Shown: positions 5,748-46,790 of the stretch, piece by piece
How the letters are laid out: the number at the start of each line of letters is the position of its first letter
Numbering within the stretch: position 1 is the stretch's first letter
Origin: Mesobacillus persicus
GTDB taxonomy: Bacteria > Bacillota > Bacilli > Bacillales > Cytobacillaceae
DNA: 64,000 nt
Direction of reading: 5' to 3'
Assembly: GCF_900109925.1 (NCBI RefSeq)
Contig: NZ_FOBW01000002.1
Location: forward strand, 248,001-312,000
Program-made: the position numbers and the translations under genes
Notes under the pieces: generated by a model
The model's database searches: none
What the model was told of the DNA's origin: nothing
The model's input: only the letters and a program-made list of their open reading frames with translations

Positions 5748-5761
5748 ACTTCCTCAACTCC

Positions 5762-11447: not shown

Positions 11448-11461
11448 CGATCACCACCTCC

Positions 11462-11901
11462 TCACCATAATTGATCGATGAACCCTTGTTCGACTTCTTC
11501 TTCTTGATTCATCACTTCGAAATACCAGTGGACATCCATTTCATCAATGTCGTTGAGTGAAAACCCACTTTTCATTAGATTTAAATACATTTCCTTGATT
11601 AATTGATAAGGATCTTGGACTACTTTTTTTTACTGTCTTCTTCCCCTGTGGTTTGTCCAACTACATGCTTGATGCTATCAATCACGAGTTTCACTAAATC
11701 TCTTCCATCGACATATTCATAGATATCTTCAAGTGAAAATTGGTTGTTGAATACCTCACAAACAAAGAATAAGACTTCATCTAATGTATCTGCTGTGAGA
11801 TTATCCAAATCGTATTCTTTTGTAATCACTAACGCTTTACGGAATAATTTTGCCTTTGCTGGTGGTGCCATGTATTTCTTTTCGTTTAATTCAAGTATCA
11901 T
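11462..11901 (-). CDS. Tail assembly chaperone, gpG and frameshifted gpGT forms
   Basis: Chaperone that loads the tape measure protein during tail assembly. The zero-frame product (11901-11620) is 93 residues and ends G-E-E-D-S-K-K-K. Eight A's at 11624-11631, just before the stop, form a slippery site. A -1 shift there continues in an open frame to the TGA at 11462, adding about 53 residues (V-V-Q-D-P-Y-Q-L-I-K...). This G/GT arrangement upstream of the tape measure gene is conserved in long-tailed phages. The extension ends 15 bases before the tape measure start. Confidence 0.87.
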
Positions 11902-11969
11902 AAATTTCCCTCCTAAAATCGTAAATAATCAAAAAAGAGAGGAACTTGTCCTCTCTTCATCGTTCATTC

Positions 11970-12539: not shown

Positions 12540-12556
12540 TTATAATCACGCTCCTA

Positions 12557-12883
12557 TTAATCATTAAATTTAGTAAATTTAAAACGAATGCTTTTTTGGT
12601 AATACTCATCTACATACATATCAGGACTTTCATTGACTCTGATTCCACCAATTTCTCGCATTTTTTGTTTGATTTGTTCTACTAAAGGGATGTAATCTCC
12701 CTTTGAGAAGACATTGACTTGAAAGAAAAGATTGGTGGCTTGTTCTTCATCATCACTCGCAAGAGCTTCTCTTGCATCGTATTGTGAATAGGTGATGTAG
12801 GTAGTTTCTTCACCATCATAGGTAATGAACTCAACAGGGACTTGTAAGGATTCTAATGAAGTTTTAATTAATGGATGATTCAT
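12557..12883 (-). CDS. Probable tail terminator protein
   Basis: 108 residues, alpha/beta, without a motif I can name. In HK97-like phages the gene between the gp10-like protein and the major tail protein encodes the tail terminator (often annotated as DUF3168 or tail completion), which caps the tube. The call is based on this position and the fitting size. Its end overlaps nothing, and its start overlaps the previous stop by four bases. Confidence 0.6.
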   Translation of the reverse strand: MNHPLIKTSLESLQVPVEFITYDGEETTYITYSQYDAREALASDDEEQATNLFFQVNVFSKGDYIPLVEQIKQKMREIGGIRVNESPDMYVDEYYQKSIRFKFTKFND

Positions 12884-13278
12884 AATCCCAATCCTTTCTT
12901 GAGTTCCTCTTCAATAATGTCTTGCATTTTCTTTTTTTCGTTATGGAATGTCTTTTCCATAAAGGGTTGTGCACTCATTTTCACGGTCCCAAATTCTAAA
13001 AATTGGCTCCAATATGCTTGATGAGTATGGACAATTTGACCTTCTTCGTTATCAGATGGTTCAAATCTGATATTTTCTTCGAGTGTTCCATAGTACAGAT
13101 TTTCCTTTGTGAAATAATGGTCATCTAACTTTTTGGCTTCTTGTTTTAATTCTTTTTCGGTATGCTCTGCTGCTTTTTTGGTTGCTTCTTGTTTTAGTGA
13201 AATTGCTTCACGACCCATTTTCTCGATTTTCTTAAAAATGTCATTCATGCCATTTACATCGATTGAACTTTTTGCCAT
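12880..13278 (-). CDS. HK97 gp10-like head-tail joining protein
   Basis: 132 residues: a helical first half (E-A-T-K-K-A-A-E-H-T-E-K-E-L-K) and a beta second half containing the family pattern W-S-Q-F-L-E-F-G-T-V-K-M-S-A-Q-P-F-M. This L/F-E-F-G-T...P-F-M signature is typical of HK97 gp10 family tail-completion proteins. It overlaps both neighbours by one to four bases. Confidence 0.85.
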   Translation of the reverse strand: MAKSSIDVNGMNDIFKKIEKMGREAISLKQEATKKAAEHTEKELKQEAKKLDDHYFTKENLYYGTLEENIRFEPSDNEEGQIVHTHQAYWSQFLEFGTVKMSAQPFMEKTFHNEKKKMQDIIEEELKKGLGL

Positions 13279-13592
13279 TAGACCACCTCACTTGCTGAAA
13301 CTTCCAAAAAACGTTTCTCAAATGTTTTGTCTTGAACACTTTGAATGATAAAATCTTTTCCTTGGTACCGAATACGATGGTTTTTATTGATTGTTTGATA
13401 GCGAAGGGTAAAAACAATGGTCACTTCTTCAAATTCTTTATCGTTCTCTACTTTTTTAGAACGCTGGTATGTATGGATATCTGACCATGTTTTTTTTACT
13501 TCCACCCATTCTTTTTGTTTAAAACCATTGGTTGTTTCGGTTTGGACTTCTTCTATCAATGAAATCCGATGTTTCAATCTTCCTATATTCAT
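13278..13592 (-). CDS. Head closure protein (SPP1 gp16 family)
   Basis: 104 residues. Starts M-N-I-G-R-L-K-H-R-I-S-L and contains W-x-D-I-H-T-Y, T-I-V-F-T-L-R-Y and N-H-R-I-R-Y-Q-G-K-D-F-I-I-Q-S-V, a clear match to head-tail adaptor proteins that close the capsid vertex after packaging. It overlaps the upstream connector gene by four bases. Confidence 0.88.
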   Translation of the reverse strand: MNIGRLKHRISLIEEVQTETTNGFKQKEWVEVKKTWSDIHTYQRSKKVENDKEFEEVTIVFTLRYQTINKNHRIRYQGKDFIIQSVQDKTFEKRFLEVSASEVV

Positions 13593-13873
13593 GAGAGATC
13601 ACTACTTGTATAGGAAAGTTGTGTCAAAATACTTTCTAACGCAAATTCAAGCGATTTACTTGTTTGACCAATTAATACAGTGTTGCGATTTTCATGCCAA
13701 TGAGCAATTAAAAACCGTTGTGCAATTCCAAACAATTCATCCTCTTTGTTTACATTGGAATGTGTGGCATTGACGAGATACGTTTCAGACGCCATGAGTA
13801 ATGAAGTTAGAAAACTATCATCATCTGGATAATCAATTCTTAAAAAATCTTTTACATCTTGTAGAGAAACCAT
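13589..13873 (-). CDS. Head-tail connector (gp6-like)
   Basis: 94 residues, mostly helical. It starts M-V-S-L-Q-D-V-K-D-F-L-R-I-D-Y-P-D-D-D, the standard opening of the gp6/gp15-type connector family that sits under the portal. The ATG overlaps the stop of the small upstream gene by one base. Confidence 0.87.
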   Translation of the reverse strand: MVSLQDVKDFLRIDYPDDDSFLTSLLMASETYLVNATHSNVNKEDELFGIAQRFLIAHWHENRNTVLIGQTSKSLEFALESILTQLSYTSSDLS

Positions 13874-14037
13874 TATTCATTCACCTTCTTTTTAGGTGAT
13901 TTTTTGACGGTTTTCACTTCCTCAACATATTGAAATTTTAGTAACTTTTCCGCTAATGCTTTTGATAAATCAGCCGTCTCATTTTTCTTTAACTCATATT
14001 CAACACCCACACAATCAATAAGTGCTTTTACCTTCAT
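13873..14037 (-). CDS. Small phage protein between capsid and connector genes
   Basis: 54 residues with AAGGAGG before the ATG at 14037 and a TAATG overlap with the connector gene. It has a basic C terminus (K-K-S-P-K-K-K). Small proteins at this position are common in HK97-like phages (sometimes Rho-N-domain-like or head-fibre related), but I cannot assign a function. Confidence 0.75.
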   Translation of the reverse strand: MKVKALIDCVGVEYELKKNETADLSKALAEKLLKFQYVEEVKTVKKSPKKKVNE

Positions 14038-14050
14038 CTAATCCCTCCTT

Positions 14051-14080
14051 CAAGAAGAAAAGAGGGTGTTATACCCTCTT
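14051..14080 (-). terminator. Weak terminator after the capsid gene
   Basis: AAGAGGGT / ACCCTCTT stem, five-base loop, followed by TTCTTCTT rather than a pure T run on the minus strand. It may lower expression of distal genes relative to capsid. Confidence 0.55.
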
Positions 14081-14081
14081 A

Positions 14082-15185
14082 TTAAAGTGCAAGTTCACCA
14101 TATACAAAGCTTTCAGCATCTTTTGTTTTTACTTCTTCACGTTCAATCGCTCTGAACAATGTCACGTCAGTTAAGTAAGCGTCACCTGCAACGTCACTTG
14201 CGACAATATCTGTACCTTCTCTTTCGAACATGACAACTGCTTCTTTTAAGTCCCCAATAATCATTGGAGCTTTTGGATTTGCTGGGTCAGTAACATCGGA
14301 TGGTAAATCTTTGTTAGATACAACAACTACATCTACGCCAAAGACTTGCTTACCTGTTGGGCTAGTTGCAGAAGGTTGAAGTAAATAGTTACCTTGTCCA
14401 TCTTTTAATTTGTCTAAGTGATTAAAGCCATCTTGGTTTGTTACAATTTTAGATGTATTTCTAAATGCTGGGTCTAATTGAACATTAATGACATCTTTAA
14501 TATCATCAGTACCCGCAATTGCTGTTTTTGCCTTTTTAGCAAGTTCAGCAAGGATTAATTTGTTACGTGTTACACGAGACTCATCACCAATCCATTGAAC
14601 TAACGTATTTTCAATTGCTTCGTCAGAGTCCTTTAATAGTTCATTTGTTACTTTGAAGAAACCAGCAAATTTTTTCACAGCATATGCCATGTTTGTGAAT
14701 TGTGGAGTAGATTTTTCAAGAATTTCGCCATTTTCCCCAACTTCAGCAAATCCAGTTTGTTGGCTACGTGCTTTAAATACTCTTGAACCAGTTGGAGCTT
14801 TTACCTTTTCAACAGAGATAAGGTTTTGTAGGGCATCTTTAGATTCTCTTAAATTGTTTATCTTCGTAAGCACTGAAGCTGGAACAGTGTATCCACCATC
14901 AGCACTAGAACCTGAACTCATCGCATTTTTGAATTTTGTACGAACACCATTGATGAAATTTTTCACTTCATCATTTTTTGCTTTTGGTTCTGTAACCACT
15001 TTATTTTCGATAGTGCTTTTCTCTTCTTCAGCCAAAGCAACTTCTAATTCGATTTGGTCTTCAATTTTCTTGATTTCAGGAAGTAAGTTTTTAGCTTCCT
15101 CGATTTTTCCTTCTTCACGAAGTGCAATAGCCTGACTTTTTAATGCATTTTTTGATTCCAATAGTTCTCTTAATTTTTTATTCAT
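14082..15185 (-). CDS. Major capsid protein, HK97 fold
   Basis: 367 residues. Residues 1-100 are a charged helical scaffold-like delta region (L-R-E-L-L-E-S-K-N-A-L-K), normally removed by the prohead protease. From about 105 the HK97 core follows, with S-S-A-D-G-G-Y-T-V-P, F-A-G-F-F-K-V-T-N-E-L-L, and the glycine-rich D-G-Q-G-N-Y-L-L-Q-P near the middle. Start ATG at 15185 has AAGGGGG nine bases upstream; a longer frame from 15212 is not needed. It sits directly after the protease gene. Confidence 0.92.
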   Translation of the reverse strand: MNKKLRELLESKNALKSQAIALREEGKIEEAKNLLPEIKKIEDQIELEVALAEEEKSTIENKVVTEPKAKNDEVKNFINGVRTKFKNAMSSGSSADGGYTVPASVLTKINNLRESKDALQNLISVEKVKAPTGSRVFKARSQQTGFAEVGENGEILEKSTPQFTNMAYAVKKFAGFFKVTNELLKDSDEAIENTLVQWIGDESRVTRNKLILAELAKKAKTAIAGTDDIKDVINVQLDPAFRNTSKIVTNQDGFNHLDKLKDGQGNYLLQPSATSPTGKQVFGVDVVVVSNKDLPSDVTDPANPKAPMIIGDLKEAVVMFEREGTDIVASDVAGDAYLTDVTLFRAIEREEVKTKDAESFVYGELAL

Positions 15186-15258
15186 TGTGTAATTCCCCCT
15201 TAAAATTGGCATAAAAAATACACCTGCGTTGAGGTGTTTAGTTTGAAATATAAATTTT

Positions 15259-16059
15259 TTAGATTAAATCAATTTCGAAATTTAGATTTTCGATTTCAAT
15301 TTCTTGTTTTTCCTTGTCAATCGCTTCATCAACGACTTCTTTCATCGTTTCTTTATCCACATTGACTGTTACTGTAAGTTTTGGATCTTCTTTTTGTTGA
15401 GGTTCGGTTTGTTGAGGATCTTCTGTGGCATGATTCGAAGTGGATTTAATAAATTCTTCTGGAGCATTCTTGTATTTGTTAAGAAACTCTGTGCTTATTG
15501 CTGCGATTTCTTTGGCTTCTACTACTTCATCACATAGCCCTAGTTCTTTACATTCTTTTGCTGTAAGCCACGTTTCAGCATCCATGATTTCGATTAGTTT
15601 TTCACGAGTTAATTCAGAGGATTTTCCTAAGTAGGCTTCTATTAAACTCTCACGGATTTTGTCTAAATCGTCTGCAATTTTTCTAAATTCAATGGCATTT
15701 CCGTAGAAACCTGTCATTGGGTTATGTAGCATTTGCATTGAATTGGACGGCATTATTACTTTATCTCCTGCACTACAAATCACTGAAGCAATTGAAGCAG
15801 CTAATGACTCAACATAGATTATTACTTCTGCTTTATTGCGCTTCAACATGGAGTGGATTTGTTGACCTGCAAAGACATCGCCGCCTGGAGATGATAAATA
15901 TACTTTTATTTGGGATACGTCACCTAAAGCGTCTAAATCTTCTTTAAATTTTTTCGGAGTGACTTCATCCCCCCACCACGACTCACTAGCGATTTCTCCA
16001 TACATTGTGATTTCACCAATATTTCCATTCTTAATGACATTCCAAAATTTCTTCTTCAC
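15259..16059 (-). CDS. Prohead maturation protease, ClpP-type
   Basis: 266-residue serine protease that cleaves the capsid delta domain and itself during head maturation. The ClpP-like core shows Y-G-E-I-A, S-S-P-G-G-D-V-F-A-G (oxyanion region), S-L-A-A-S-I-A-S with the catalytic Ser, and M-L-H-N-P-M with the catalytic His. The C-terminal 70 residues are charged linker. GTG at 16059 is preferred because AAAGGAGGTG lies about seven bases upstream. It is located between portal and capsid genes. Confidence 0.9.
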   Translation of the reverse strand: MKKKFWNVIKNGNIGEITMYGEIASESWWGDEVTPKKFKEDLDALGDVSQIKVYLSSPGGDVFAGQQIHSMLKRNKAEVIIYVESLAASIASVICSAGDKVIMPSNSMQMLHNPMTGFYGNAIEFRKIADDLDKIRESLIEAYLGKSSELTREKLIEIMDAETWLTAKECKELGLCDEVVEAKEIAAISTEFLNKYKNAPEEFIKSTSNHATEDPQQTEPQQKEDPKLTVTVNVDKETMKEVVDEAIDKEKQEIEIENLNFEIDLI

Positions 16060-16094
16060 CCTATCACCTCCTTTCAAAGGCATAATAAAAAGCC

Positions 16095-17324
16095 CTATTT
16101 TTTAGGACTACCTTGTTCAACTCCTGCTTTTGCTTTCTGGTATTCATCAGCAGAATCGATATCAATAAAATTGAGACTTCTGTAATGCTTATCCCCATTT
16201 TCAATTGCATTCATTTCTTCAAATTTTCTAATTTCATTAATAGAATAAATTCCTGCTTCAATCATGGTTTTATAGAATTGACTGCGAGCAACACTATCAG
16301 CACGCATGGCAGATGATAAGTTGAATTTGACATATAAGCCTTGTTTTTGTTCACTTGGCGTAAACAACTTGTAATTCAACTCTTGCTCAATTGCAATCGC
16401 TTCAGGCATCAATGTATCCATTACAAAGCTCATAGTCATTTGTTCGATGTTATTAAACGTTGCTGATTCAAGTGAATTCAACATATGTAATGGAATGTTA
16501 TAAGCACGTGCAATTTCTTCGATTGAAAACTTTCTAGAAGCAAGGAATTCTTGGTCTGCAAGATTTAAGGTGATATTTTGAAATTCCATACCTGAATCAA
16601 GCACAGCTACTTTTTGTTCATTTCCTTTTGAGTTTGCTTCCATCCAGTGTCTTCTCACAGCGTCCTTTGCATCCTTTGAAAGTTGGGTGGGAATTTTTAA
16701 CACGCCACGGGTAAGCGTTCCTTGGGAGTAAAAGCTCGTTATGTATCGATCTTGTGCGGTTATTAAGCCAGCCGTTTCCCTGAGGACATCAATTGGGGAT
16801 TTTGGGGTAATTCCATCAGTCGTTAAATACGTAATCACTAGCAATTCTTCTTGATTGTATACATTTGTTTTTCCATCTTTAGTAGACTCCACATAAAAGA
16901 TTTTTCCTGAGATATCTTCTACAATATCTACTCTTGATGGATTTAAAGGATACAAACCAATGACTTTCCCTTTTCTATCTGTATTAATCCTGCTGTAATG
17001 AACACCCTCTGTACCTCTATGGGTTTGCAACAAGTGAACAAAAGTGAAAGTAGACATTAATGGGTTTACTCGACCAGAAAGTAATTGTGCAACAGGATGA
17101 TCATACACTCGTTCACGACCCTTTTCAGTTTTTCGATAAACATGAATCGGTAACTTTGCTAAACTGTTTGCCTTCAAATTCACCGCAGCATAAATTGGCG
17201 ATAAATTAAGAGCTCCTTCGTTTGTGATGACTTCACCTGCATTTGTGTTCGGTACTGACTTAAAGAAGTCATTTAAACTCACAGCATTCTTTGGCTGAGT
17301 AAAGAATTTTGATAGTAATCCCAT
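16095..17324 (-). CDS. Portal protein, HK97 family
   Basis: 409 residues forming the dodecameric portal through which DNA enters. Family features: N-terminal L-S-P-I-Y-A-A-V-N-L-K-A-N-S-L-A-K-L, the P-L-N-P-S-R segment, G-I-T-P-K-S-P-I, and F-S-I-E-E-I-A-R-A-Y-N-I-P near residue 290. Strong ribosome site before the ATG at 17324. The protease follows after 35 bases. Confidence 0.92.
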   Translation of the reverse strand: MGLLSKFFTQPKNAVSLNDFFKSVPNTNAGEVITNEGALNLSPIYAAVNLKANSLAKLPIHVYRKTEKGRERVYDHPVAQLLSGRVNPLMSTFTFVHLLQTHRGTEGVHYSRINTDRKGKVIGLYPLNPSRVDIVEDISGKIFYVESTKDGKTNVYNQEELLVITYLTTDGITPKSPIDVLRETAGLITAQDRYITSFYSQGTLTRGVLKIPTQLSKDAKDAVRRHWMEANSKGNEQKVAVLDSGMEFQNITLNLADQEFLASRKFSIEEIARAYNIPLHMLNSLESATFNNIEQMTMSFVMDTLMPEAIAIEQELNYKLFTPSEQKQGLYVKFNLSSAMRADSVARSQFYKTMIEAGIYSINEIRKFEEMNAIENGDKHYRSLNFIDIDSADEYQKAKAGVEQGSPKK

Positions 17325-17357
17325 TTCGTTTCCCTCCTTTCCTATTAAGATTTAATG

Positions 17358-18092
17358 CTATAACCCTCTTTTGATGTATTCGGTTAGCTTTTGCCACTCA
17401 CCAATATCAAAGAATCGTATTTTCCAAATTCTTAAATAGGAAGCATTTCCAAGTAAGCAATGAAACTTATATTTTTTAAAATATTGTGGGTTATCAATTT
17501 TAAATTGCATTTCACTCTTCTCTGATTGCCAAGTTGTTGTAGAAATATCTTTTTGATAATCTAACTCAACCTCTGTGCCATCATCATTGACGCCAAAGAT
17601 TTTCCAATCCTTTGGTTGAGCAAGTGACGTTTTAATGGCGTATCCGAAAAAGGCTTGATGAGTTGGCAACTCGACTTGTAACCATGCATCTCTTGCATAA
17701 GATTCCGATGGTTGCCAGTATTCAACCATGGCATTATTTGCACTCCCGTTGTCTTCATAACGGTTAAAGACATAAACCGCTTCCTCTGGCTTTGTTGAAG
17801 CGTTGAATCCATACCCGTTGACATTGTATCGGTCGGAATAAAGGCTATAAACTCCATTCCCATCCAACTCTCCGTCCAAATTAGGAATGCTTGATGCTTT
17901 ATTTAAGCCATAAACATACATTTGTCCGTCTTCTTCGTTGTACACTTGTTTGCCTATGTTTTGTGCTTTTTCTTCTTCTAGTGGATCTGGAAATTCAAGG
18001 GCAGTTTCGACACTTGGCACACCTTGGTTTCCACCTGATGTTTGTTGTATTAATTTCTTTATAGTTCCTTTTGGAAAAGGTCTATATGGCAT
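17358..18092 (-). CDS. Unknown structural protein with discoidin-like (F5/8 C) region
   Basis: 244 residues. The first 75 are a low-complexity, Gly/Pro-containing arm. From about residue 80 a beta-sandwich resembles coagulation-factor F5/8 C or galactose-binding folds (S-Y-A-R-D-A-W-L-Q-V-E-L-P, D-W-K-I-F-G-V-N, K-Y-K-F-H-C-L-L-G-N, Y-L-R-I-W-K-I-R-F). Such folds bind carbohydrate. It is in the head module between the terminase and portal genes, an unusual place, so it may be a capsid decoration or head fibre. I do not recognise a specific family. Confidence 0.65.
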   Translation of the reverse strand: MPYRPFPKGTIKKLIQQTSGGNQGVPSVETALEFPDPLEEEKAQNIGKQVYNEEDGQMYVYGLNKASSIPNLDGELDGNGVYSLYSDRYNVNGYGFNASTKPEEAVYVFNRYEDNGSANNAMVEYWQPSESYARDAWLQVELPTHQAFFGYAIKTSLAQPKDWKIFGVNDDGTEVELDYQKDISTTTWQSEKSEMQFKIDNPQYFKKYKFHCLLGNASYLRIWKIRFFDIGEWQKLTEYIKRGL

Positions 18093-18119
18093 GATGTTTT
18101 GCCCCCTTTATTAAATGCA

Positions 18120-18428
18120 TTACACGATAAATTGAAGAATTAAAGGAATTTCACTTGCTGGTGTTGAGACTTCAAAACTTTTAATGGTGTCTACAAAATC
18201 TCCTACATAATCACCGTCAAATAATGTAATCCCTTGTGCTGCTTCTCCACCATTTATGGTCACTTTAATGTTTGCACCTGCTTGTTTTACTACAAATGCA
18301 TACGCATCTGTTGGCACATTTACTGTATGATTGACCAGTCCATTGGTGGCACTGATTTCTTCTTCAACAATTTTAGTGGTTCCTCCACTAAACGACACAC
18401 CGTTTGCGTCTTTTTTTAACTTGAACAT
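18120..18428 (-). CDS. Small beta-rich head-module protein, unknown
   Basis: 102 residues, predicted mostly beta, with V-K-Q-A-G-A-N-I-K-V-T-I-N-G-G-E-A-A. GGGGGGA precedes the ATG. It lies beside the discoidin-like protein gene in the head module and may be another decoration protein. No family is recognised. Confidence 0.65.
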   Translation of the reverse strand: MFKLKKDANGVSFSGGTTKIVEEEISATNGLVNHTVNVPTDAYAFVVKQAGANIKVTINGGEAAQGITLFDGDYVGDFVDTIKSFEVSTPASEIPLILQFIV

Positions 18429-18442
18429 GTAGTTCCCCCCTG

Positions 18443-18604
18443 TTATTTTTCTTTTTCCCTCGGTTTCATGCTATAAAGTAACGAAATCGTTAAGAATATG
18501 ACGCCCAGTAAGTAAAACCCTACGTACACATTCAAAAAGAACGTTGGCACGATAACCAGCAATAATCCGATGCAAAAGAGCAAATCATCTATGTATTTCT
18601 TCAA
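18443..18604 (-). CDS. Small two-helix membrane protein
   Basis: 53 residues with TTG start at 18604 (GAGGTGG upstream) and two transmembrane segments separated by a short turn (I-G-L-L-L-V-I-V-P and F-Y-L-L-G-V-I-F-L). It sits directly after the large terminase gene, where similar tiny membrane proteins occur in many Gram-positive prophages. Function unknown. Confidence 0.65.
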   Translation of the reverse strand: MKKYIDDLLFCIGLLLVIVPTFFLNVYVGFYLLGVIFLTISLLYSMKPREKEK

Positions 18605-18623
18605 ATTTCCACCTCATTTCTGG

Positions 18624-20318
18624 TTAAAATGAAAAATCATCACTTAAAATGTGTTCATTCATGTCTAGGTAATCCCCTTCTAGAGTGAATGTTCGTACAT
18701 GGGCATTTATCAGACTTGCAATCGGGTCAATTTTTTCTGATGACTTGCTTTTATCCAGTTGTTCATTGAGATTGGCATCACTACGAACAACGGCATTTGA
18801 AATACTCCATGTTAAAACAGGATTAGAGTTGTGTTTGACTTTTCCGTTATAGACTCTCTCACGAAAGTCTTTTGTAGGAAGCGATAAGGTTGCATATCCT
18901 TGACGAGCCTCTACAACAACAAATCCTTTTTTCTCCATGTTTTGCATGAAATACATCGCTTGCCAAGGGTCTGATATGATTTCTCTTACATTCCAGTCAT
19001 ATTGTTTTGCTAGTTCTTCTATGTAGACCTCTACGAATTCAAAATCAACCACAGCTCCTGGGATTGAAGTGATCCAACCTTCTTGAATCCATAAATCATA
19101 TGGCACTTTACCTGTTTGTATTTTTTCTGGTAACGTTTCTTCTGGTAAGAATGAGTGATTATGTACATAAAGGTGTTCATCTTTGACAAACAAAAAAGTT
19201 ACACTTGTTAAGTCGTTCTTTGTGGATAAATCCACGCCAACCACACAAGGTAACCCTCTTAAATCTTCCAGCGTATAATCATCTTCACATTTCTTCCATT
19301 TGGATAAATCCATATAGCCGTTATCTCTCATCTCGACCCAAATGTTCATGTTTTTGGTTAAAAACCCTCTTAATTTACTTTTTTGGTCTAAAGCCGTCTT
19401 CAACTCACCTCGTAAGAAGTTCATACCTTCTTCGTAAGTTGTAGAAATTGGGCAACTTTTAGCCCACAAGGTTTCATCCTTTATGTCATCGCCTTTATCC
19501 AGTTCACAAATTAAGGCAAAGTATTCATCATTCTCAATCGGATTATCAGGGTCAAGAATCTTAGAAACATATTGATATTCTTGATAACATGGACTTGATA
19601 AATTAAAGCCAGCAGTTGTAATAATAACGATTAATGGTTGTTTTCTTGCCACCATACCAGATGCTAATACTTCGTAAACTTCTGAAGTCGGATGCAGATG
19701 GTACTCATCAAGGATGGCTAGGCTCGGATTCGTTCCATCACCAAACCGTCTCGCCTCTCTACTTAGTGCTTTAATAAAACTTCCACTCTTTAAATGTTTG
19801 ATTTGATGGTATGAATCGCTAAATTTACCTTCTAATAATTCACTAGCCTTTATCTGAGATAATATTTCGTTATATACGATATTGGATGTATCCTTTGACC
19901 ATCCTCCGATATATGTTTCAGAAATTTCATCACTTAAAAAAGTTTCATAACTTGCAATAAGACTTAAAAGTTGGCTCTTAGCTTGCTTTCTGGCAATTTG
20001 AATATAAACTTTGCGTATTCTTCGATAACCAGTCTTTTTGTTTTTCCACCCAAAGATGTTCGCCACGATAAACAATTGAAAATCAGTGAGTTCAATAGGT
20101 TCTCCTGCAAGAACTCCTTTTGTATGTTTAAACATTTTCGCCCATTCGTAAAAGTGGTACACTTCTTCAGTATCAAACTCGTATGGAAAATCCTCACTTT
20201 GTGATTTATCCAAATCATTGACGAATCGCCTAACAGCTTGTATATGTTTTTTACACGCTATTATTTTTCCATCAATAACATCACTACAATAATTCACAAT
20301 TCGCTCGATTAATTCCAT
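18624..20318 (-). CDS. Terminase large subunit
   Basis: 564-residue DNA-packaging motor (HK97-type, Terminase_1). The ATPase part has a Walker A-like A-R-K-Q-A-K-S near residue 110, Walker B L-A-I-L-D-E-Y-H near 195, and a T-T-A-G coupling motif. The nuclease part has G-V-D-L-S-T-K-N-D-L-T near 340 with the metal-binding Asp, and a later E-I-I-S-D-P-W. Its start overlaps the small subunit's stop by one base, and it is intact. Confidence 0.93.
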   Translation of the reverse strand: MELIERIVNYCSDVIDGKIIACKKHIQAVRRFVNDLDKSQSEDFPYEFDTEEVYHFYEWAKMFKHTKGVLAGEPIELTDFQLFIVANIFGWKNKKTGYRRIRKVYIQIARKQAKSQLLSLIASYETFLSDEISETYIGGWSKDTSNIVYNEILSQIKASELLEGKFSDSYHQIKHLKSGSFIKALSREARRFGDGTNPSLAILDEYHLHPTSEVYEVLASGMVARKQPLIVIITTAGFNLSSPCYQEYQYVSKILDPDNPIENDEYFALICELDKGDDIKDETLWAKSCPISTTYEEGMNFLRGELKTALDQKSKLRGFLTKNMNIWVEMRDNGYMDLSKWKKCEDDYTLEDLRGLPCVVGVDLSTKNDLTSVTFLFVKDEHLYVHNHSFLPEETLPEKIQTGKVPYDLWIQEGWITSIPGAVVDFEFVEVYIEELAKQYDWNVREIISDPWQAMYFMQNMEKKGFVVVEARQGYATLSLPTKDFRERVYNGKVKHNSNPVLTWSISNAVVRSDANLNEQLDKSKSSEKIDPIASLINAHVRTFTLEGDYLDMNEHILSDDFSF

Positions 20319-26325: not shown

Positions 26326-28305
26326 TTAATCAACGAGACCATATGCTTTATGAAAATTATTGACAGTGACTTTCCCTTTTGGAGTTAAAGTTGCCTTTCT
26401 GTTGGCATTCCAGCCTTTTTTATACGTAATGTATCCACCTCTTTGTAAATCAAAGAGCATTCGAGCGACTTTATCTTTCGAGAATTTTTTATACAAGAAG
26501 ATAAGTTCTTCTAGTCGTTCTGCAAATGGCAATGCACAATACTCCAACATCAAACAATGTTCTTCATTGATGTTTTTACGAAGAAGAACATCTAAGTTTT
26601 CATTTGTCATCATTGCTTTTAATTTTTCCAGTGCTTTTTCTTCTAATTGTCTTATCGCTTCACGAGTGATGCCATATTCTTCACCAATTTGCTCTAATGT
26701 CATCACGTCATAATACCGTTTTTCAATAATGTCTCTTTCTTTCTCATTGAGATAAATGAGTAAATCTTGAATATCCATCTTGTCTAATCCATTATCAGGT
26801 TCGTCAAAAGTGGTATTCACCAATGTATCCTTTAAAGTTGTTGTGCTTTCATCTTTATAAGAGGATGTCTTGATTTCTGCATCTAATGAATAGGTGTTGA
26901 AATTTTCTTCCCATGATTTATATTTTTTTAATAGTTTCATTGATACTTCAAGAGCAGATGCAAGTTCTTCATCATTTGGTTCACGCTTTAATTCTTCTTT
27001 TAGCTTTGCTTTCGTTTTTCTTATTTTTCTAATCTCATAGTAGGCATTTACAGGAAGTCCATTTTGTTGCTGGTTTTGTTTTCCTAGTTCTCTTTTAATA
27101 CCCCACTTGATGTTTTGACCTGCAAACGATATAAATTTATTGTTTTCTATTTGAGTTACATCATAATTTTCAAGAGCTTCAAGAAACCCAATTACTCCAA
27201 TTTGATATAGATCTTCTTGAAGAAAAGTATCATTTCTTGCTGAGGGAGATAATTTGTAAATAAAATGATAAATAAATTTTTCATTACGAGTTATTAATAC
27301 TTCTTTTATCTCTTCTTTTCGGTTATCAGAAGTGGCATATTTGTATTCAACCACTAATTCTTCATTGGACTTTTCATCATCAGGTTTGGTTGCTAATTCC
27401 TCTAAGGATTCAAACGTTCCATTAAAGAGTAAAAATTCGATTTCATAATATTTTTCCTTTCGAATTCCAGCCTGTTGGACGATTTCCTCAATCGTGGGTT
27501 TTCGATGAAGCTCTATTGTCAACATTTCTTCTGCTTGTTTAATTTTTTTGTAAACATCGTATTTCTTCCAGTCATCTTGATTCTTTTTCGAAACACCATA
27601 ATTAACTTCAATTTGGATTTTATCTTGTTCGATTTCTTCTTTTGCTTCTGGATTATTTGGTTCTTTTTCAAGTTGTGTTTTAAACTCTTGAACTTTTCCT
27701 TTTGCACGATAAAGAGCATTGTCTACTTTTTTTCGATTAATGCCTACCTTTTCCCCTATTTCGGAATAAGAATATCCTTCAAGAGACAATTCAAAGATTT
27801 GTTTCTCCATCTCTGTAAATGTTTCTTCTTTATATTGTTTAAAATGTTTTACCGTATCATTTGTTTCCACTTGTTTAGATGGGTCAACGAACTCATAGGA
27901 AAGACTAATCTGGGCTTGTTCTGAATGGGATGCATAATCAATAAATGCAGTATCATCACCATCAGGCAACAAAGCATCATAGGAATGGCTTTCATTTAAG
28001 GCAAGATGTTTATTATTTTTCGACCGATTTAATTCACCTAAAATTTTATGTTTCACAAACCTTCTACACCATGATTGAAAGTTACCGTTTTCGACTTTTT
28101 CAGGATTAAAGGCTTCAATGGCTTCCATCATTCCCATGCAACCTATTTGAAAGATATCATCACGGTCTGCACCTGGGATAAAGATTTTCTTTTGAAAACT
28201 TTTAACAATGGGTTCACATTTTTGGATGATTTCATTGATTGCTCTTTCATCGCCTTGTTGTGCTTGTTTGAGTACGTTCATATCAATGTCAGCAATATGA
28301 CTCAT
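26326..28305 (-). CDS. Tandem sigma-factor fusion: SigH-like plus second sigma-70-like unit
   Basis: 659 residues, about three times a normal alternative sigma factor. Residues 1-210 resemble SigH: region 2 at about 45-100 (G-A-D-R-D-D-I-F-Q-I-G) and region 4 at about 163-205. Residues 258-290 look like sigma region 3 (R-K-P-T-I-E-E-I-V-Q-Q-A-G). A second full unit follows: region 2 at about 340-405 (E-D-L-Y-Q-I-G-V-I-G-F-L-E-A), region 3 at about 425-460 (R-E-P-N-D-E-E-L-A-S-A-L) and region 4 at about 518-565 (T-R-E-A-I-R-Q-L-E-E-K-A-L). The last 80 residues look like a winged helix. The frame is continuous, so this is a fusion and not an annotation artefact. It probably redirects host RNA polymerase; no target promoter is known. 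Confidence 0.85.
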   Translation of the reverse strand: MSHIADIDMNVLKQAQQGDERAINEIIQKCEPIVKSFQKKIFIPGADRDDIFQIGCMGMMEAIEAFNPEKVENGNFQSWCRRFVKHKILGELNRSKNNKHLALNESHSYDALLPDGDDTAFIDYASHSEQAQISLSYEFVDPSKQVETNDTVKHFKQYKEETFTEMEKQIFELSLEGYSYSEIGEKVGINRKKVDNALYRAKGKVQEFKTQLEKEPNNPEAKEEIEQDKIQIEVNYGVSKKNQDDWKKYDVYKKIKQAEEMLTIELHRKPTIEEIVQQAGIRKEKYYEIEFLLFNGTFESLEELATKPDDEKSNEELVVEYKYATSDNRKEEIKEVLITRNEKFIYHFIYKLSPSARNDTFLQEDLYQIGVIGFLEALENYDVTQIENNKFISFAGQNIKWGIKRELGKQNQQQNGLPVNAYYEIRKIRKTKAKLKEELKREPNDEELASALEVSMKLLKKYKSWEENFNTYSLDAEIKTSSYKDESTTTLKDTLVNTTFDEPDNGLDKMDIQDLLIYLNEKERDIIEKRYYDVMTLEQIGEEYGITREAIRQLEEKALEKLKAMMTNENLDVLLRKNINEEHCLMLEYCALPFAERLEELIFLYKKFSKDKVARMLFDLQRGGYITYKKGWNANRKATLTPKGKVTVNNFHKAYGLVD

Positions 28306-29258
28306 GGCTTGACCCCATTTTTGTATTCATTGGTCTGTTTGGATTTTATAACTTCCTTTTCTACAACCATTTTTAATTTTTCAAGTGCTCTAAACGTTCC
28401 TTTATGGATAATATCTAATCGTTTCTTTAACTCATAAGCCAACTCTTGTTGTGTTTTCCCATGGAGGTAATGTTGTTCAATCAACAATCTGTCCATTCCA
28501 TTTAACTTAACAAGGGATTCTCTAATCACTTGTTCATCAACATCCACTTGTAAATTGGTTTTCTTTTTCAAGACGTCTGAAAGGTTCTTTTTGGTGATGG
28601 GTTGATTCTGTTCAATTTGTTCAACAAACTCATCTATTTTTCTTCTTGAGCGTTGAATTGCATTATCAATGGTTTTACTTTCAACCCCAAGTCTTTCTTC
28701 AAGTTCTTGGTAGGTTAAACCCTCTATATGAAACAACTGATAAATTTCTTTTTCTCTATCGCTAAAATGCAAGTCTTTAAAACGGTCTAATTGTTCCAGT
28801 TTGTCTTGAATTTCAATTTGTTTAATTGGATCTAAAAATTCATAGGATAAACTTTCCTGTGCATTCATCGAGTTGGATGCAAAATCTAAAAATGTCATAT
28901 TATCGTTCTCTGGAAGTGGAACATCAAAGGAGTCACTTTCATTTAATGCTTTATGTTTCTTTCGTGTTGCACCTTTAACGGCACCAATGAGTTGTCGGTC
29001 GATACACATGGCACAAAAGGAAAGAAAATTTCCTTCTTCTACTTTTTCAGGTTCAAAACTTTGGATGGCTTTAAAAATGCCAATGTTTCCTTCTTGAAAG
29101 ACATCGTCATATTCAGCACCTGGTAAAAAGTATTTTCTTTTTTTGATGATGGCTTTTACCAGTCCACGAAGTTGATTTGCAATTTCATTAAATGCAAATT
29201 CGTCACCATCTTTTGCTTTTTGTATCATCTCTAGTGGAATCTCTTTATATTTACTCAT
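28302..29258 (-). CDS. SigH-like phage sigma factor with extra HTH
   Basis: 318 residues. Residues 1-220 align in layout with SigH and with the first unit of the next gene: L-P-G-A-E-Y-D-D-V-F-Q-E-G-N-I-G-I-F-K-A-I (region 2) and F-S-D-R-E-K-E-I-Y...L-T-Y-Q-E-L-E-E-R-L-G-V (region 4). Residues 240-300 hold a second region-4-like HTH (T-Q-Q-E-L-A-Y-E-L). Its stop overlaps the start of the fusion gene by four bases, so both are made together. The two genes appear to share ancestry by duplication. Confidence 0.87.
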   Translation of the reverse strand: MSKYKEIPLEMIQKAKDGDEFAFNEIANQLRGLVKAIIKKRKYFLPGAEYDDVFQEGNIGIFKAIQSFEPEKVEEGNFLSFCAMCIDRQLIGAVKGATRKKHKALNESDSFDVPLPENDNMTFLDFASNSMNAQESLSYEFLDPIKQIEIQDKLEQLDRFKDLHFSDREKEIYQLFHIEGLTYQELEERLGVESKTIDNAIQRSRRKIDEFVEQIEQNQPITKKNLSDVLKKKTNLQVDVDEQVIRESLVKLNGMDRLLIEQHYLHGKTQQELAYELKKRLDIIHKGTFRALEKLKMVVEKEVIKSKQTNEYKNGVKP

Positions 29259-31424: not shown

Positions 31425-32612
31425 TTATTTAGATTCTTCCAATTGGAAGGCTTGTTGATTTTCATCGACTTCATTTTTCTTTTTGGTTTTTCTAGTTGAG
31501 CCTTTTCTCTTTTTCTTTTCCCCTGTTGTTACCATGTTTTGGATGTATTCTTCATCCCATCTTGCTGGTTCTGTTTCATATGGAATCTTGGCATAGGTTT
31601 TAAGAATGGCTTCTACAATGATTTTCGCGCCTTCCACTGGCACTGCCATCCCAATTTGCTTTCTAGCACTTTCTTTTCCTCCAATAAACTCATACCAATC
31701 AGGGAATGTTTGAAGTCTAGCACGTTCACGGTTGGTTAAAGCACGAGGTTCTTCATAGTGATACATATGAGTTCCTCCACCGCCTGAACCTGTTACCGTA
31801 TATGCTGGAGTTTCAGGATGCAGTCTTCTATATATGTTCGACATTTTTGTTTTCTTTACATTCAAACGAAGATGTTCTGGTAGATAATCCACCCAGCAAT
31901 TATCCCCTGGGTTTATATGTGAAAGCATTTCGATGACTTTTTTATCATGTCTTGTGAATTCATGATTCAGTGCATCTTCAGGTATTGGTGGATTTTCAAG
32001 GGCTTGTTTGGATGATTTCCAGTCCTTCTTATTTTTAAAAGGAGCTTTAGGCACTTCAAATCGTAGACCAAGGTCTTTTCTGAATCCAACGATGATAATA
32101 CGATGCCTTGCTTGTGGGACACCATATTCTTCAAACTTATATTTATGAGGAGTGATGGTATAACCTGCTCGTTCCATCTCCGTTAAAATTTGAATAAAGG
32201 CTTTTCCTTCGTTTGCACTTTCTAGTCCACCTACATTTTCAGCAATAAACCATTTTGGCTTGTGGTGTTTTAAGACTTTGATTCCGTATGAATAAAGTCC
32301 ACCATATTCCCCTTCAAGTCCTTTTGTTTCTCCTACAAGAGAAAAATCATTACAAGGGAATCCAAATGCGAAGGCATCAATCGGTGGTAAACTTTTGATA
32401 TCTAACTCTTTTACATCTCCAAAGAAAACCGTCTCTGGTTTATCAGGACATATATTATGTCGGAACGTTTTGCATGTGTCTTCATGATAATCATTAGCCC
32501 ATGCATGTTCTACTTTATATAAAGTATTGTTTTCATCTTTTACTTCCACCATTTTAGCTCCTAGCGATAAGCCCCCAGGACCACAGAACAGCTCTCCTTT
32601 TCGAAAAATCAT
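31425..32612 (-). CDS. DNA (cytosine-5) methyltransferase
   Basis: 395 residues. Clear C5-methyltransferase motifs: motif I L-F-C-G-P-G-G-L-S-L-G (8-18), motif IV F-P-C-N with catalytic Cys87, motif VI E-N-V (126-128), motif VIII Q-A-R-H-R (168-172), and near the end the conserved R-E-R-A-R-L-Q-T-F-P and Q-I-G-M-A-V-P. A target-recognition region lies between about 200 and 290. The C-terminal 40 residues are Lys-rich. It is divergent from a PLD-family nuclease gene, so it is most likely the protective methylase of a type II restriction-modification system. Confidence 0.93.
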   Translation of the reverse strand: MIFRKGELFCGPGGLSLGAKMVEVKDENNTLYKVEHAWANDYHEDTCKTFRHNICPDKPETVFFGDVKELDIKSLPPIDAFAFGFPCNDFSLVGETKGLEGEYGGLYSYGIKVLKHHKPKWFIAENVGGLESANEGKAFIQILTEMERAGYTITPHKYKFEEYGVPQARHRIIIVGFRKDLGLRFEVPKAPFKNKKDWKSSKQALENPPIPEDALNHEFTRHDKKVIEMLSHINPGDNCWVDYLPEHLRLNVKKTKMSNIYRRLHPETPAYTVTGSGGGGTHMYHYEEPRALTNRERARLQTFPDWYEFIGGKESARKQIGMAVPVEGAKIIVEAILKTYAKIPYETEPARWDEEYIQNMVTTGEKKKRKGSTRKTKKKNEVDENQQAFQLEESK

Positions 32613-32783
32613 TTACTTTCGCTCCTACATGTGTAGTTTGTCATTTTATGTTCTAAAGTCTAATTATACACTACTCATCCATCCATTAAAAGTTTGCAAG
32701 TCTATCTTCCAACTTAATAGGTGACATCTCTAGTAAACTCTAATATTATTAAATTGACAATGTAAAAAATTGGAGGGATTCCT

Positions 32784-33785
32784 ATGTATTTGACGAGTCA
32801 TTTGCTTGAACATGTCTTTAGAGAACCTTATCGTCATGGTTTTCGCAAACTGCGTATTTTATCAGGTTACGCATCCAGTGCTTTTTTGTATCACATTTTG
32901 GATACATACCCTGATATTGAAATCGATTTAATCATTGGAATGAGTAAAAGAGATGGCATTAATCGGTGGGATCATGAACGTTACAGACAAGTCATGCATG
33001 AAAATCCTCGTATTCAAATCAGCTACAAGACCACTCACCCACCAGTACATACAAAAATCTATCATTGGTATAATGATGCTCGACAAGATGATACCCTTAC
33101 ATTTGTAGGTTCTGCTAATTTTTCATGGGGTGGGTTTCGTGACCAAAAGGAACTATTGGTAGTAGCCAATCATGATAATATCGATGAGGTATTTGATCTT
33201 CCTGATGTAATCAGTTGCACAGACCCTGACGTTGACCAACATATTAACTTCCACAACATTCACTATCGACGTCAAACGCAAACGATTGTTGCCAATCCAA
33301 CCAATCGTACAAGAACAGAACCTGCACATGTTGCTCAACCTATGAATCTACAAAACTTGGAATATATTGATTTGTCACTTTTAATAAACGAAAATAGAAT
33401 TCATGAAAAAGCTGGTCTAAATTGGGGACAACGTCCTGGTCGTGAACCAAACCAAGCGTATATACCTGTTCCGACACCATTTACTATGAGAGAAAATCCA
33501 ACATTCTTTCCACCACTTGAACAAACATTCACGATGCTAACAGATGATGGAGAACAATTAATGTGTGTGATGGCTCAAGCGAACCGTAAAGCGATCCATA
33601 CAAGTGAAAGTAATAGTATTATGGGACGTTATTTTAGAAATCGTCTTGGCGTAGCTTTAGGTGCAAGAGTGGACGTTCAAGATTTACTGAATTATGGAAG
33701 AACAAGTGTACGAATTTATAAAATGGATGATGAAACCTATTTCATGGACTTTGGTGTTGATTCACCTGTTACGGAAGTTTGGTAA
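32784..33785 (+). CDS. PLD-family type II restriction endonuclease (NgoFVII-like)
   Basis: 333 residues. The N-terminal half is a phospholipase-D-type nuclease domain with one HKD-like motif: H-T-K (89-91) and V-G-S-A-N (108-112) followed by F-S-W-G-G. This is the form found in NgoFVII/BfiI-type restriction enzymes, which act as dimers and need no metal. The C-terminal half should recognise DNA. It is transcribed away from the methyltransferase, with a 170-base gap holding both promoters, and ends at a terminator. The recognition site cannot be read from the sequence. Confidence 0.82.
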   Translation: MYLTSHLLEHVFREPYRHGFRKLRILSGYASSAFLYHILDTYPDIEIDLIIGMSKRDGINRWDHERYRQVMHENPRIQISYKTTHPPVHTKIYHWYNDARQDDTLTFVGSANFSWGGFRDQKELLVVANHDNIDEVFDLPDVISCTDPDVDQHINFHNIHYRRQTQTIVANPTNRTRTEPAHVAQPMNLQNLEYIDLSLLINENRIHEKAGLNWGQRPGREPNQAYIPVPTPFTMRENPTFFPPLEQTFTMLTDDGEQLMCVMAQANRKAIHTSESNSIMGRYFRNRLGVALGARVDVQDLLNYGRTSVRIYKMDDETYFMDFGVDSPVTEVW

Positions 33786-34479: not shown

Positions 34480-34934
34480 GTGATTTTAAGAAGGATTTCG
34501 TTTACAACACTCCATTGCGGGTGGAGAGTCCTGAACTGAGCAGACTACCCCTTACCAAAGGGTAGAAAGCGCATAAAAGGATATTGCAGTCTGGAGCCGC
34601 CATATCACATCGCATTATAGTGCCGTACTGCCTACTACCAATTCGGGGACGGGTCACCTAGGTCCAGCTTTATTGACCGACTTTAAAAGTTCACACTATA
34701 ATCTACCTTGCCAAAAGGCAACTGGGACGGGATTTGTAACATTACTCTAAAAAAGAGTCATTTACTCTAGGAAAGAAGACATGTCCCTCTACGGACGATT
34801 CACCGTTGGTTCTCGAAAGAGTTCTTACCTCTTTCACGGGAGCGAGGTTGACGGGAAACTCTACTCAATTTGTATCGTCTTTTTTCATATCACTCATGCC
34901 TTTCATGAATGATACAGGCTCTCTGCCAGTGATA
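34480..34934 (-). ncRNA. Candidate large structured RNA (about 450 nt)
   Basis: A stretch without any reading frame, with markedly higher G+C than its AT-rich flanks and dense in hairpins: TTGCC-N4-GGCAA at 34708-34720, GAAAGAG/CTCTTTC near 34815-34836, CTACCC/GGGTAG near 34545-34565, GTCC/GGAC near 34782-34796, ACTCT/AGAGT near 34743-34758, and a terminal CATATCACT/AGTGATATG stem. The minus strand has a good promoter at one end (34941-34969). No terminator is clear at the minus-strand 3' end. A plus-strand RNA ending in the terminal stem plus TATTTTTATA is the alternative. Size, location in a prophage and lack of coding potential recall the ROOL/GOLLD class of ornate phage RNAs, but I cannot match a family. 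Confidence 0.6.
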
Positions 34935-35086: not shown

Positions 35087-35479
35087 CTAAGCCGTTACCA
35101 TTCGCAATTTATTTTTCTTCCATTCGTTTGGATGGAGTTGCTGAATCTGTTTTTGATAAGAGAGTGCCACCATTTTCACATCATAAATTCCACCATATGT
35201 ATTTCCTGTTCGCTTATAGATTCTGTAAAACCCTTTTAGAAAATTGGGATGGTAGGCTTCTTCTTCTGTTAAGGTTATAGCAAATAAATCTTTTAGTTCT
35301 TCACCCGTCATGTATCTTTTTAAGGGTTGGTTGTTCCAATTGACGCCTTTGATTGTTTTAAAAAGAATCTCTTCTGCACGTTCATCTTGAAATGTTAAGC
35401 CAATTGCGACCCCTCCACCACTTCCTTTTATTAATGGAAGGTTGGTTTGTTGTATGTAGTTTTTATCGTATGTCATCAT
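35087..35479 (-). CDS. Hypothetical protein downstream of ERF
   Basis: 130 residues; an N-terminal G-S-G-G-G-V-A-I-G-L loop and a C-terminal helical, basic part (W-K-K-N-K-L-R). Start overlaps the end of the ERF gene by four bases, so it may work in the same recombination step. No nuclease motif is evident. Confidence 0.6.
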   Translation of the reverse strand: MMTYDKNYIQQTNLPLIKGSGGGVAIGLTFQDERAEEILFKTIKGVNWNNQPLKRYMTGEELKDLFAITLTEEEAYHPNFLKGFYRIYKRTGNTYGGIYDVKMVALSYQKQIQQLHPNEWKKNKLRMVTA

Positions 35480-36141
35480 GATATATCACTTCCTTTTTTC
35501 ATGAAATAATTAATGACTTCACTTATTTGTTTTTTATTTAATTCTTCTATCGATTTTACATTTCTGCCTTTATATATTTTTTCTAATAATTGTTCTAGTG
35601 GAACATTGGATTTTTTAGAGAAGTTGGATAGTTCGATTTTAAGTTTTTTGATTTGTTTTTCAGAAGCTTTGTTCGAGGATTGTGTGGAGTTGGAAGATTG
35701 ATTTGTATGATTGTTTTGATCTGTGTTTATATCTCCTTCAGGGTCATCTCCTGTTGGAATCATAAAGGCTTTCATAATGGCATACTTGGTTGCACCAGTC
35801 ATCGCTTTGTAGTACCCCTTGTCACCTGCATCTTGTCCTTCACCTGCAATTTTAAAACTAATGGTTTCACCTGTATCTCCATCCATGAACGTAAATTCTA
35901 CTAAAACAGTTGCAATATATTCTACCTTTCCTTTTGCATTTGTATGTTCTCTAACTATATGTTCTGCAACGGATGGTATCATAATGACATTTTGTTCTGA
36001 TAATGCCTCCCTAACTGGTTCTACAATATCTGCTTCCTTTACATAAGAATATTTATGAAAATCATTAAAGCCTGACTTTTGAATATATTTTACTTTTTGC
36101 ATCACACTTGCTAATTTTTTTACTAATTGTTTTTCGCTCAT
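35476..36141 (-). CDS. ERF-family single-strand annealing recombinase
   Basis: 221 residues. The N-terminal 150 carry ERF features: K-S-G-F-N-D-F-H-K-Y-S-Y-V-K-E-A-D-I, I-A-G-E-G-Q-D-A-G-D-K-G-Y-Y-K-A-M-T-G-A-T-K-Y-A and F-M-I-P-T-G-D-D-P-E. A Ser/Asn-rich linker and a helical C terminus follow. ERF proteins pair homologous single strands during phage recombination and circularisation. ATG at 36141 follows GGAGTGA; the longer frame from 36231 overlaps the upstream gene. It lies in the early operon. Confidence 0.9.
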   Translation of the reverse strand: MSEKQLVKKLASVMQKVKYIQKSGFNDFHKYSYVKEADIVEPVREALSEQNVIMIPSVAEHIVREHTNAKGKVEYIATVLVEFTFMDGDTGETISFKIAGEGQDAGDKGYYKAMTGATKYAIMKAFMIPTGDDPEGDINTDQNNHTNQSSNSTQSSNKASEKQIKKLKIELSNFSKKSNVPLEQLLEKIYKGRNVKSIEELNKKQISEVINYFMKKGSDIS

Positions 36142-36145
36142 GTTA

Positions 36146-36460
36146 TCACTCCTCTTCCTGTAAAAGTATTCGTTTTTGCACCTCATGTATCTTTTGATAA
36201 ATGTCTTGTTTTTCCTCTTCACTAAATTCACGGTCGATAAATTCTTTCGTAGAAGGATTTTCTACATTGCCAATGGTTTTATAAGTATATTTGGTTGAAA
36301 CCTTTCTGACTGCTTTATCCCATGCTTCCCCTCTTGTGAGTTCTTGAAGTAAGAATTCTTCCATTTTTTCTTCACGGAGTTGTTTTGTCTTTTGTGCATG
36401 GTAATAACGCAAGACAAAGTAGATGTATTTATTTTTCCGAATTCGGATTTCCCAGCTCAT
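36146..36460 (-). CDS. Early-region hypothetical protein, 104 residues
   Basis: Basic N terminus (M-S-W-E-I-R-I-R-K-N-K-Y-I-Y-F) and helical rest ending Q-E-E-E. Immediately upstream of ERF with a good ribosome site. Unknown. Confidence 0.65.
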   Translation of the reverse strand: MSWEIRIRKNKYIYFVLRYYHAQKTKQLREEKMEEFLLQELTRGEAWDKAVRKVSTKYTYKTIGNVENPSTKEFIDREFSEEEKQDIYQKIHEVQKRILLQEEE

Positions 36461-39273: not shown

Positions 39274-39429
39274 TCATATTTCCTTAGAAATATGGTTTCT
39301 AACTGTTTTTTCACTAATAAACAGTTCGCCCGCTATTTCTCTTGTCGTTTTATCCTGTACTAACAGTTCGAACACTTCTCTTTCTCGTTTGGTGAGTAAT
39401 GGCTTGTGAGTAAATTCATTCTCCTTCAA
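39274..39429 (-). pseudogene. gerE: gerE, 5' half only, interrupted by the prophage
   Basis: LuxR-type regulator of late mother-cell genes (coat and germination functions) in Bacillus sporulation. The visible part starts at TTG 39429 with AGGAGGG upstream. It reads K-P-L-L-T-K-R-E-R-E-V-F-E-L-L-V-Q-D-K-T-T and E-K-T-V-R-N-H-I-S, almost identical to B. subtilis GerE to about residue 48 of 74. Then K-E-I and a stop of phage origin replace the second half of the HTH. The remaining 26 codons should be at the left junction. As it stands the protein lacks half its DNA-binding domain; precise excision would restore it. The neighbour ysmA confirms the locus. Confidence 0.92.
39280..39294. other. attR: right prophage-chromosome junction inside gerE
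   Basis: The GerE reading frame is intact through H-I-S (CAT ATT TCT, 39294-39286) and then departs from the expected N-A-M-Q-K. The shared crossover core must lie within or next to CATATTTCTAA. The dinucleotide cannot be fixed without attL. Confidence 0.8.
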
Positions 39430-39492
39430 GTATATTAACCCTCCTTGCCTTCGACAGCTGTGAACTGCGGGGTGGGTATATTTTAGTCACCA

Positions 39493-39520
39493 TATCTTAT
39501 GTAAAGGAAAGAGACAGAGT
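39493..39520 (-). promoter_or_regulatory. Sigma-K-type promoter of gerE
   Basis: Minus strand AC (39520-39519), 17-base spacer, CATAAGATA (39501-39493), matching the sigma-K form AC-N16/17-CATAnnnTA. It lies about 65 bases upstream of the gerE start and is still intact. Confidence 0.75.
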
Positions 39521-46589: not shown

Positions 46590-46790
46590 TTTATACGCTC
46601 GCACAGTGAGATAGCCCTCCAAGACACAAACATCTTGACAATCCTGCATTTATTCAATGCAAAACCAGCAAGGAAAGCTATGAGTCTTTCCTCACTTCGG
46701 CGGACAACCCTTTCAAAGCCCTTCAAAGAATCCCATTATTCTCCAGGCTCTTACTCTTGAGGTCCGCACCTCTATCTTCACTTTAACGCT
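46590..46790 (-). ncRNA. Lysine riboswitch (L box)
   Basis: Leader RNA that ends transcription of lysC when lysine is bound. Minus strand shows the conserved parts in order: GAGGTGCGGACCTCAAGAGTA, GCCGAAG-GAGGAAA, a GC-rich arm, and GGAGGGCTATCTCACTGT near the 3' end. The terminator follows at 46541-46577. Confidence 0.93.

Follow-up and report, generated by a model that had tools for sequence, protein, structure and literature searches.

The locus raises the question of whether the prophage that interrupts gerE, a mother-cell regulator gene of sporulation, in Mesobacillus persicus is an ordinary lysogenic insertion or an element excised during sporulation with reconstitution of the gene. The idea of a developmentally excised element in gerE is not new. 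The element gin (28.6 kb), published in 2017, splits gerE of Bacillus cereus ATCC10987; its sporulation-specific excision was demonstrated, takes place at mid-sporulation and depends on GirC together with the 42-aa GirX, and the composite GerE is functional in B. subtilis (PMC5595907). Other precedents described are SP-beta/spsM, skin/sigK, vfbin/spoVFB, vrin/spoVR and yin/yabG.

The split gerE and its crossover site

The window (the whole stretch of 64,000 nucleotides analysed; G000:C16:248001-312000) lies in C16, a 498-kb contig of a draft genome of 4.64 Mb in 40 contigs. Positions given below without a contig or locus name are window positions. The 5' half of gerE (39274-39429, reverse strand) had a TTG start at 39429 and read LKENEF...KTVRNHIS and then KEI-stop: host codons 1-48 and the AA of codon 49 gave way to foreign sequence, with three foreign codons after NHIS and a stop at 39274-39276. 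The 3' half (C16:247725-247817, reverse strand), 184-276 bases to the left of window base 1, consisted of the codons HISNAMQKLGVKGRSQAVVELLRMGELEL-stop, read HISNAMQKLG to GELEL-stop, and lay between the recombinase gene and a MarR-type gene, with a racE-like gene after the latter. The preliminary description had claimed a GerE frame intact for about 48 codons and then changed, which was right in its coordinates, with host sequence ending within codon 49; it had also expected the remaining GerE codons left of base 1, where they were present beside the recombinase. A second intact gerE, named there as counter-evidence, was not found in the genome: apart from the two halves, all GerE matches were in frames of at least 177 aa in one search and at least 214 aa in the other. 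In M. persicus, a mother-cell sporulation gene is split by an inserted element.

The proposed survey of relatives returned an empty gerE in 6/6 congeneric species examined (G001-G006; uninterrupted match 1-74, E about 1e-38) and occupied gerE in other genomes; within the genus, the M. persicus genome only was occupied (1/7). DNA identity of the split halves to gerE of the six congeners was 83-91% (5') and 82-88% (3'), and the empty site in the congeners was CATATT-TCTAACGC or a close variant. The sigma-K-type promoter placed ahead of gerE was upheld by its -10, CATAAGATA (39493-39501, reverse strand), which preceded gerE in M. persicus and 5/6 congeners, with CATAGGATA in the remaining one; the sigma-K -10 consensus is CATANNNTA. 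A lysine riboswitch was observed in the host flank (46604-46782, reverse strand).

The predicted crossover was set at the AA of codon 49 (39284-39285, reverse strand, in attR; attL partner at C16:247801-247802, outside the window), with attR keeping CATATTTCT to the left of the AA and attL keeping CACATTTCC. The element ends formed an inverted repeat around this AA with 22/30 positions matched (0/5000 shuffles as good), and the best dyad centre of 17 shifts was exactly the codon-49 AA in 19/19 occupied loci (M. persicus and 18 others, from two recombinase clades). Symmetry of serine-recombinase attP sites about a central dinucleotide is described in PMC5595907, which predicts an AA at the end of the 9-bp core of gin. 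The shared core that the preliminary description had placed at the junctions stood in part: a common sequence exists, but it is limited to ATTTC-N-AA, with the codon-49 AA as the crossover point according to the dyad. Flanks joined within this core translated as GerE, in agreement with the in-frame reconstitution that had been foreseen, and since the dyad at the element ends has the codon-49 AA as its centre, recombination between the att sites would restore the gerE frame exactly. It is practically certain that the prophage splits gerE at an exact and reversible site.

The prophage, its recombinase and the upstream small ORF

The prophage, described beforehand as roughly 39 kb long, measured 39.5 kb from AA to AA; it occupied positions 1-39284 of the window, and its start lay about 200 bases outside, to the left. 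Its predicted genes included those of an HTH repressor-like protein (1722-2225, forward strand), lysis, tail, head and packaging functions from endolysin to large terminase (2910-20318, reverse strand), portal, capsid and protease, an ERF single-strand annealing protein (35476-36231, reverse strand) and the integrase; as predicted from these products, the gene set of a temperate tailed phage is present in the gerE element. Over 19-24% of the query, the head and packaging DNA matched Geobacillus virus E2 and its relatives at about 63-67% identity, and IMG/VR yielded a viral contig of 38.5 kb, the recombinase of which is identical.

A broken tape measure gene was considered and rejected. In the gap between the frames at 10374-11447 and 7695-10151 lies a group I intron (10169-10418, reverse strand; RF00028, 63.3 bits), missed by the whole-window run at the gathering threshold; it gives the gene an interrupted appearance in a list of frames, so that the phage is not visibly defective there. 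Also observed in the prophage were two adjacent phage sigma-factor-like proteins (26326-29258, reverse strand), the 659-aa one with two sets of sigma-70 regions, a divergent type II restriction-modification pair (31425-33785) of a C5 methyltransferase and an NgoFVII-like nuclease, and, in the phage early region, a match to the EGFOA RNA family (57.6 bits; 34614-34776, reverse strand).

The element encodes its own large serine recombinase (521 aa; 1-1397, reverse strand; ATG at 1397, gene end beyond the left edge of the window, at C16:247832), at the far end of the prophage as first described and with the second gerE half beside it. The recombinase profile, which was built on large serine recombinases and could miss a distant small resolvase, matched one frame in the window (E <= 1). 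A scan of named genomes with a five-recombinase alignment gave 79 loci, 48 of them at least 42% identical to the M. persicus recombinase (clade A) and the other 31 at most 34% identical. Clade B recombinases were 29-34% identical to that of M. persicus and used the same AA.

Upstream of the recombinase gene lay a small ORF (51 aa; 1441-1596, reverse strand), a candidate recombination directionality factor, preceded by a SpoIIID-like box and a mother-cell-type -10 (TAGGACAATC-N9-CATATAGAT; 1619-1646, reverse strand) that may act as its promoter. A terminator-like hairpin between the small ORF and the recombinase (1427-1448, reverse strand) and a possible sigma-A promoter of the recombinase (TTAACG-N18-TATAAT; 1465-1494, reverse strand) were picked by eye. 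The SpoIIID consensus is WWRRACARNY, and M. persicus encodes SpoIIID.

By an automatic rule, a small ORF (37-85 aa) was upstream of the recombinase in 44/49 clade-A rows (48 loci, one counted twice), and by eye in two further rows (L043, L062). It was absent upstream of the clade-A recombinases L020 and L021, and in clade B it was convincing at 2/10 loci only. At L020:8001-8420 and L021:8001-8399, the place of the small ORF was taken by part of a second recombinase, immediately upstream of the complete one. An [AG][GT]ACAA box 6-11 bases ahead of [CAT]ATA was found for 23/41 small ORFs (dinucleotide shuffles: mean 0.67, maximum 4, n = 300), with patterns picked after inspection of the sequences and with related rows that are not independent; the 41 rows were the 44 automatic ones minus L051 and L052 (doubtful start) and the duplicate L047_9864. 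The motif CATANNNTA stood ahead of 14/41 small ORFs (1.4 expected) and was absent from the M. persicus locus, where the small-ORF -10, CATATAGAT, does not fit it. The strict box pattern was found in 5/54 rows, from three independent species including M. persicus; L067, the recombinase of which spans several frames, was left out of this test by length. The small ORF was only moderately constrained (pN/pS 0.33 over 12 pairs).

As the anatomy of the locus shows, the recombinase joined attB, inside gerE, to attP at the central AA, leaving attL and attR. Growing cells would be unable to make GerE, presumably at small cost because gerE is used late in sporulation. In the sporulating mother cell, the gene of the small protein, just ahead of that of the recombinase, would be transcribed from the SpoIIID/mother-cell-sigma promoter, and the protein, as a directionality factor, would turn the recombinase to excision, as gene order, the promoter box and published systems suggest. 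Excision at the AA would rebuild the 74-codon gerE, with a possible effect on coat genes, and the inherited forespore chromosome would keep the prophage; ordinary phage excision with the same recombinase might also occur. A temperate siphovirus-like prophage in gerE, excised in the sporulating mother cell by way of the small-ORF directionality factor, is the preferred reading, with a probability of roughly 0.8. Taken singly, developmental excision of the prophage is very likely on the sequence evidence, its occurrence in the sporulating mother cell is likely, and the small ORF is probably the directionality factor.

The alternative that survives best, itself unlikely, keeps developmental excision and moves the switch: the directionality factor would be another phage gene, or the recombinase would be regulated as in B. 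subtilis skin. Sequence similarity among the directionality factors of large serine recombinases is low (PMC5025042), so that the small ORF is not recognisable by homology, and SpoIVCA is itself under sigma-E and SpoIIID, the latter with sigma-E switching on spoIVCA and spoIVCB (PMC517825, PMC5025042). In C. difficile skin, the directionality factor is described as being under sigma-E and SpoIIID and the recombinase as constitutive (PMC517825, PMC5025042). What argues for the small ORF is that it and the recombinase were the only recognised genes of the 2.6-kb element L026, and that GirX of gin is likewise small, at 42 aa (PMC5595907).

Occupied gerE in other genomes

Among 397 genomes from the order of the host, 380 had a GerE match at E 3e-18 or better, and gerE was split in 16/380 genomes, including M. 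persicus, with both halves on one contig in 14 of the 16; splits were counted among the 380 and not among the 17 genomes without a match. A clade-A recombinase at E 1e-80 was present in 6/397 genomes (three candidates scored per genome), and the other ten split genomes carried a clade B recombinase, within about 60 bases of a gerE half in nine and at 2.8 kb in G277. Low GerE scores in genus g92 were considered as splits and rejected, G169, G221 and G244 matching residues 10/11-74 unbroken; the g92 genomes G266, G287, G308, G328 and G348 were excluded from the split count.

A gerE half was within 8 kb on the fetched locus in 44/48 clade-A loci, and at most 100 bases from the recombinase end in 31 of the 44. 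The remaining four loci were all in split-gerE genomes: L057 lay between two gerE halves 36 kb apart, and L044, L053 and L060 were on broken contigs of genomes in which the GerE matches were also in halves. Each of 26 handles (25 genomes, L018 and L034 being one genome) had a 5'-half GerE match, and no whole-protein GerE match was found in the 25 genomes among the matches listed. Clade-A hosts included Neobacillus, Mesobacillus, Metabacillus, Peribacillus, Calidifontibacillus, Aneurinibacillus, Paenibacillus, Cohnella and Fontibacillus. Element size ranged from 2.6 kb (L026) to about 58 kb (L045), and the recombinase was beside or near the 5' half, antiparallel, in L025, L029, L038, L039, L045 and L064 (clade A) and in L109 and L113 (clade B).

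In the tree, clade A (48 rows, 98/98), clade B (10 rows, 100/100) and the pair L061/L063 together made up one group (100/100) against an outgroup of eight rows without a gerE half on fetched loci; L061/L063 and the outgroup were long branches, and the root was by midpoint only. The L061/L063 pair (Sulfoacidibacillus and a Bacillota MAG; 32-34% identical) was observed as a third and more distant recombinase type inside gerE, antiparallel to it.

A clade-A integrase at 50% identity was found in at least 19 P. larvae phage records. The 5' half of gerE was present on two IMG/VR contigs (L128 and L129); on the fetched stretch of viral contig L127, a gerE half was not found. L127 nevertheless had a dyad, with 17/24 positions matched at an AA centre (3/1000 shuffles as good). 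The signal was weak at the ends of P. larvae phage PBL1c, with 14/24 at the expected centre, the best of 17 shifts; in a free scan, other centres tied or nearly so, and 278/1000 or 319/1000 shuffles were as good.

In 11 half-gene comparisons between occupied relatives (14 pairs entered; three gave no gerE half to compare), there were 81.5 synonymous differences over 209 sites and 8.5 nonsynonymous differences over 709 sites (pN/pS 0.031), which indicates continued constraint on the halves, although part of the divergence may be older than the split. Stop-free halves numbered 55 (3') and 24 (5'), some genomes being counted twice. The insertion in M. persicus may be young, since 1/7 genomes of the genus was occupied, and the halves there may not yet have been tested by selection.

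An ordinary prophage that had chanced on gerE would be excised lytically only, and its lysogens would sporulate without GerE and with a defective coat. The complete-looking phage with its repressor and the single occupied genome of the genus are consistent with such an insertion, but it is rendered quite improbable by the use of the same codon across many genera by recombinases of at least two clades, the gerE halves being intact, by elements of 2.6-5 kb in gerE, which could not be phages, and by the excision of gin from the same site in sporulation (PMC5595907). An assembly artefact or chimeric contig, conceivable in a draft of this kind, has a negligible probability, with both junctions inside one contig and forming a matched dyad attP, an IMG/VR element with an identical recombinase, and the same architecture recurring in independent assemblies.

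Known developmental elements and a wider reading

Developmental excision of the M. persicus prophage would resemble that of gin in the split of gerE at codons 47-49, the predicted central AA, the serine recombinase, the small directionality factor (a candidate in M. persicus) and the precise reconstitution, which in M. persicus is read from the sequence. The two elements differ in that gin is described as lacking phage genes and as carrying three recombinases, girA, girB and girC (PMC5595907), whereas the M. persicus element is a complete-looking phage, with terminase, portal, capsid, tail and lysis genes, and has one large serine recombinase, the single profile-matching frame in the window. 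One gerE prophage, B. glycinifermentans BGLY, is mentioned in PMC5595907, in passages that do not examine its excision; it is alike in being a prophage in gerE, and its integrase shares 52% identity with GirC (PMC5595907). A relation of that prophage to clade B would be a guess. SP-beta of B. subtilis is likewise a phage that doubles as a sporulation-excised element, with SprA and the directionality factor SprB (PMC4191935), and differs in the gene split (spsM) and in the phage. The skin elements of B. subtilis and C. difficile also split a mother-cell regulator gene that is then rebuilt, with a trigger under sigma-E and SpoIIID (PMC5025042), but the gene split is sigK, not gerE, and sigK was unsplit in M. 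persicus. In open-licence papers, no gerE element was found reported beyond gin and the B. glycinifermentans remark, nor was the clade-wide recombinase/gerE pattern found in print. What is new is that a phage complete in appearance, with an integrase clade of its own, occupies a developmental site already known.

It seems moderately probable that codon 49 of gerE is a recurrent developmental-switch site in endospore formers, used by at least two recombinase clades that temperate phages spread, with some elements reduced to 2.6-kb DNA introns, and that the small ORF and recombinase form a portable module reading the SpoIIID and mother-cell sigma factors of the host, so that the phage would arrive with its excision pre-wired to spore development. 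If true, such pre-wired excision would operate in hosts from Bacillaceae to Paenibacillaceae. The recurrence described above turns one published case (gin, B. cereus) into a pattern that can be tested: separate recombinase clades in several families, carried by phages as well as by very small elements, use the same codon of a 74-codon regulator. This provides naturally occurring att sites for comparison, along with promoters and candidate directionality factors, and allows one to ask whether the host benefits from a split gerE or simply tolerates it.

Two tandem gerE 3' halves, 1.6-1.9 kb apart, were observed at L041:9590-11298 and at L058:7909-9857, an arrangement that suggests a second insertion into a site already occupied. 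One gerE element carried a tandem duplication (L047:6974-11408): two recombinase copies, diverged to the same degree, with the same small ORF accompanying each.
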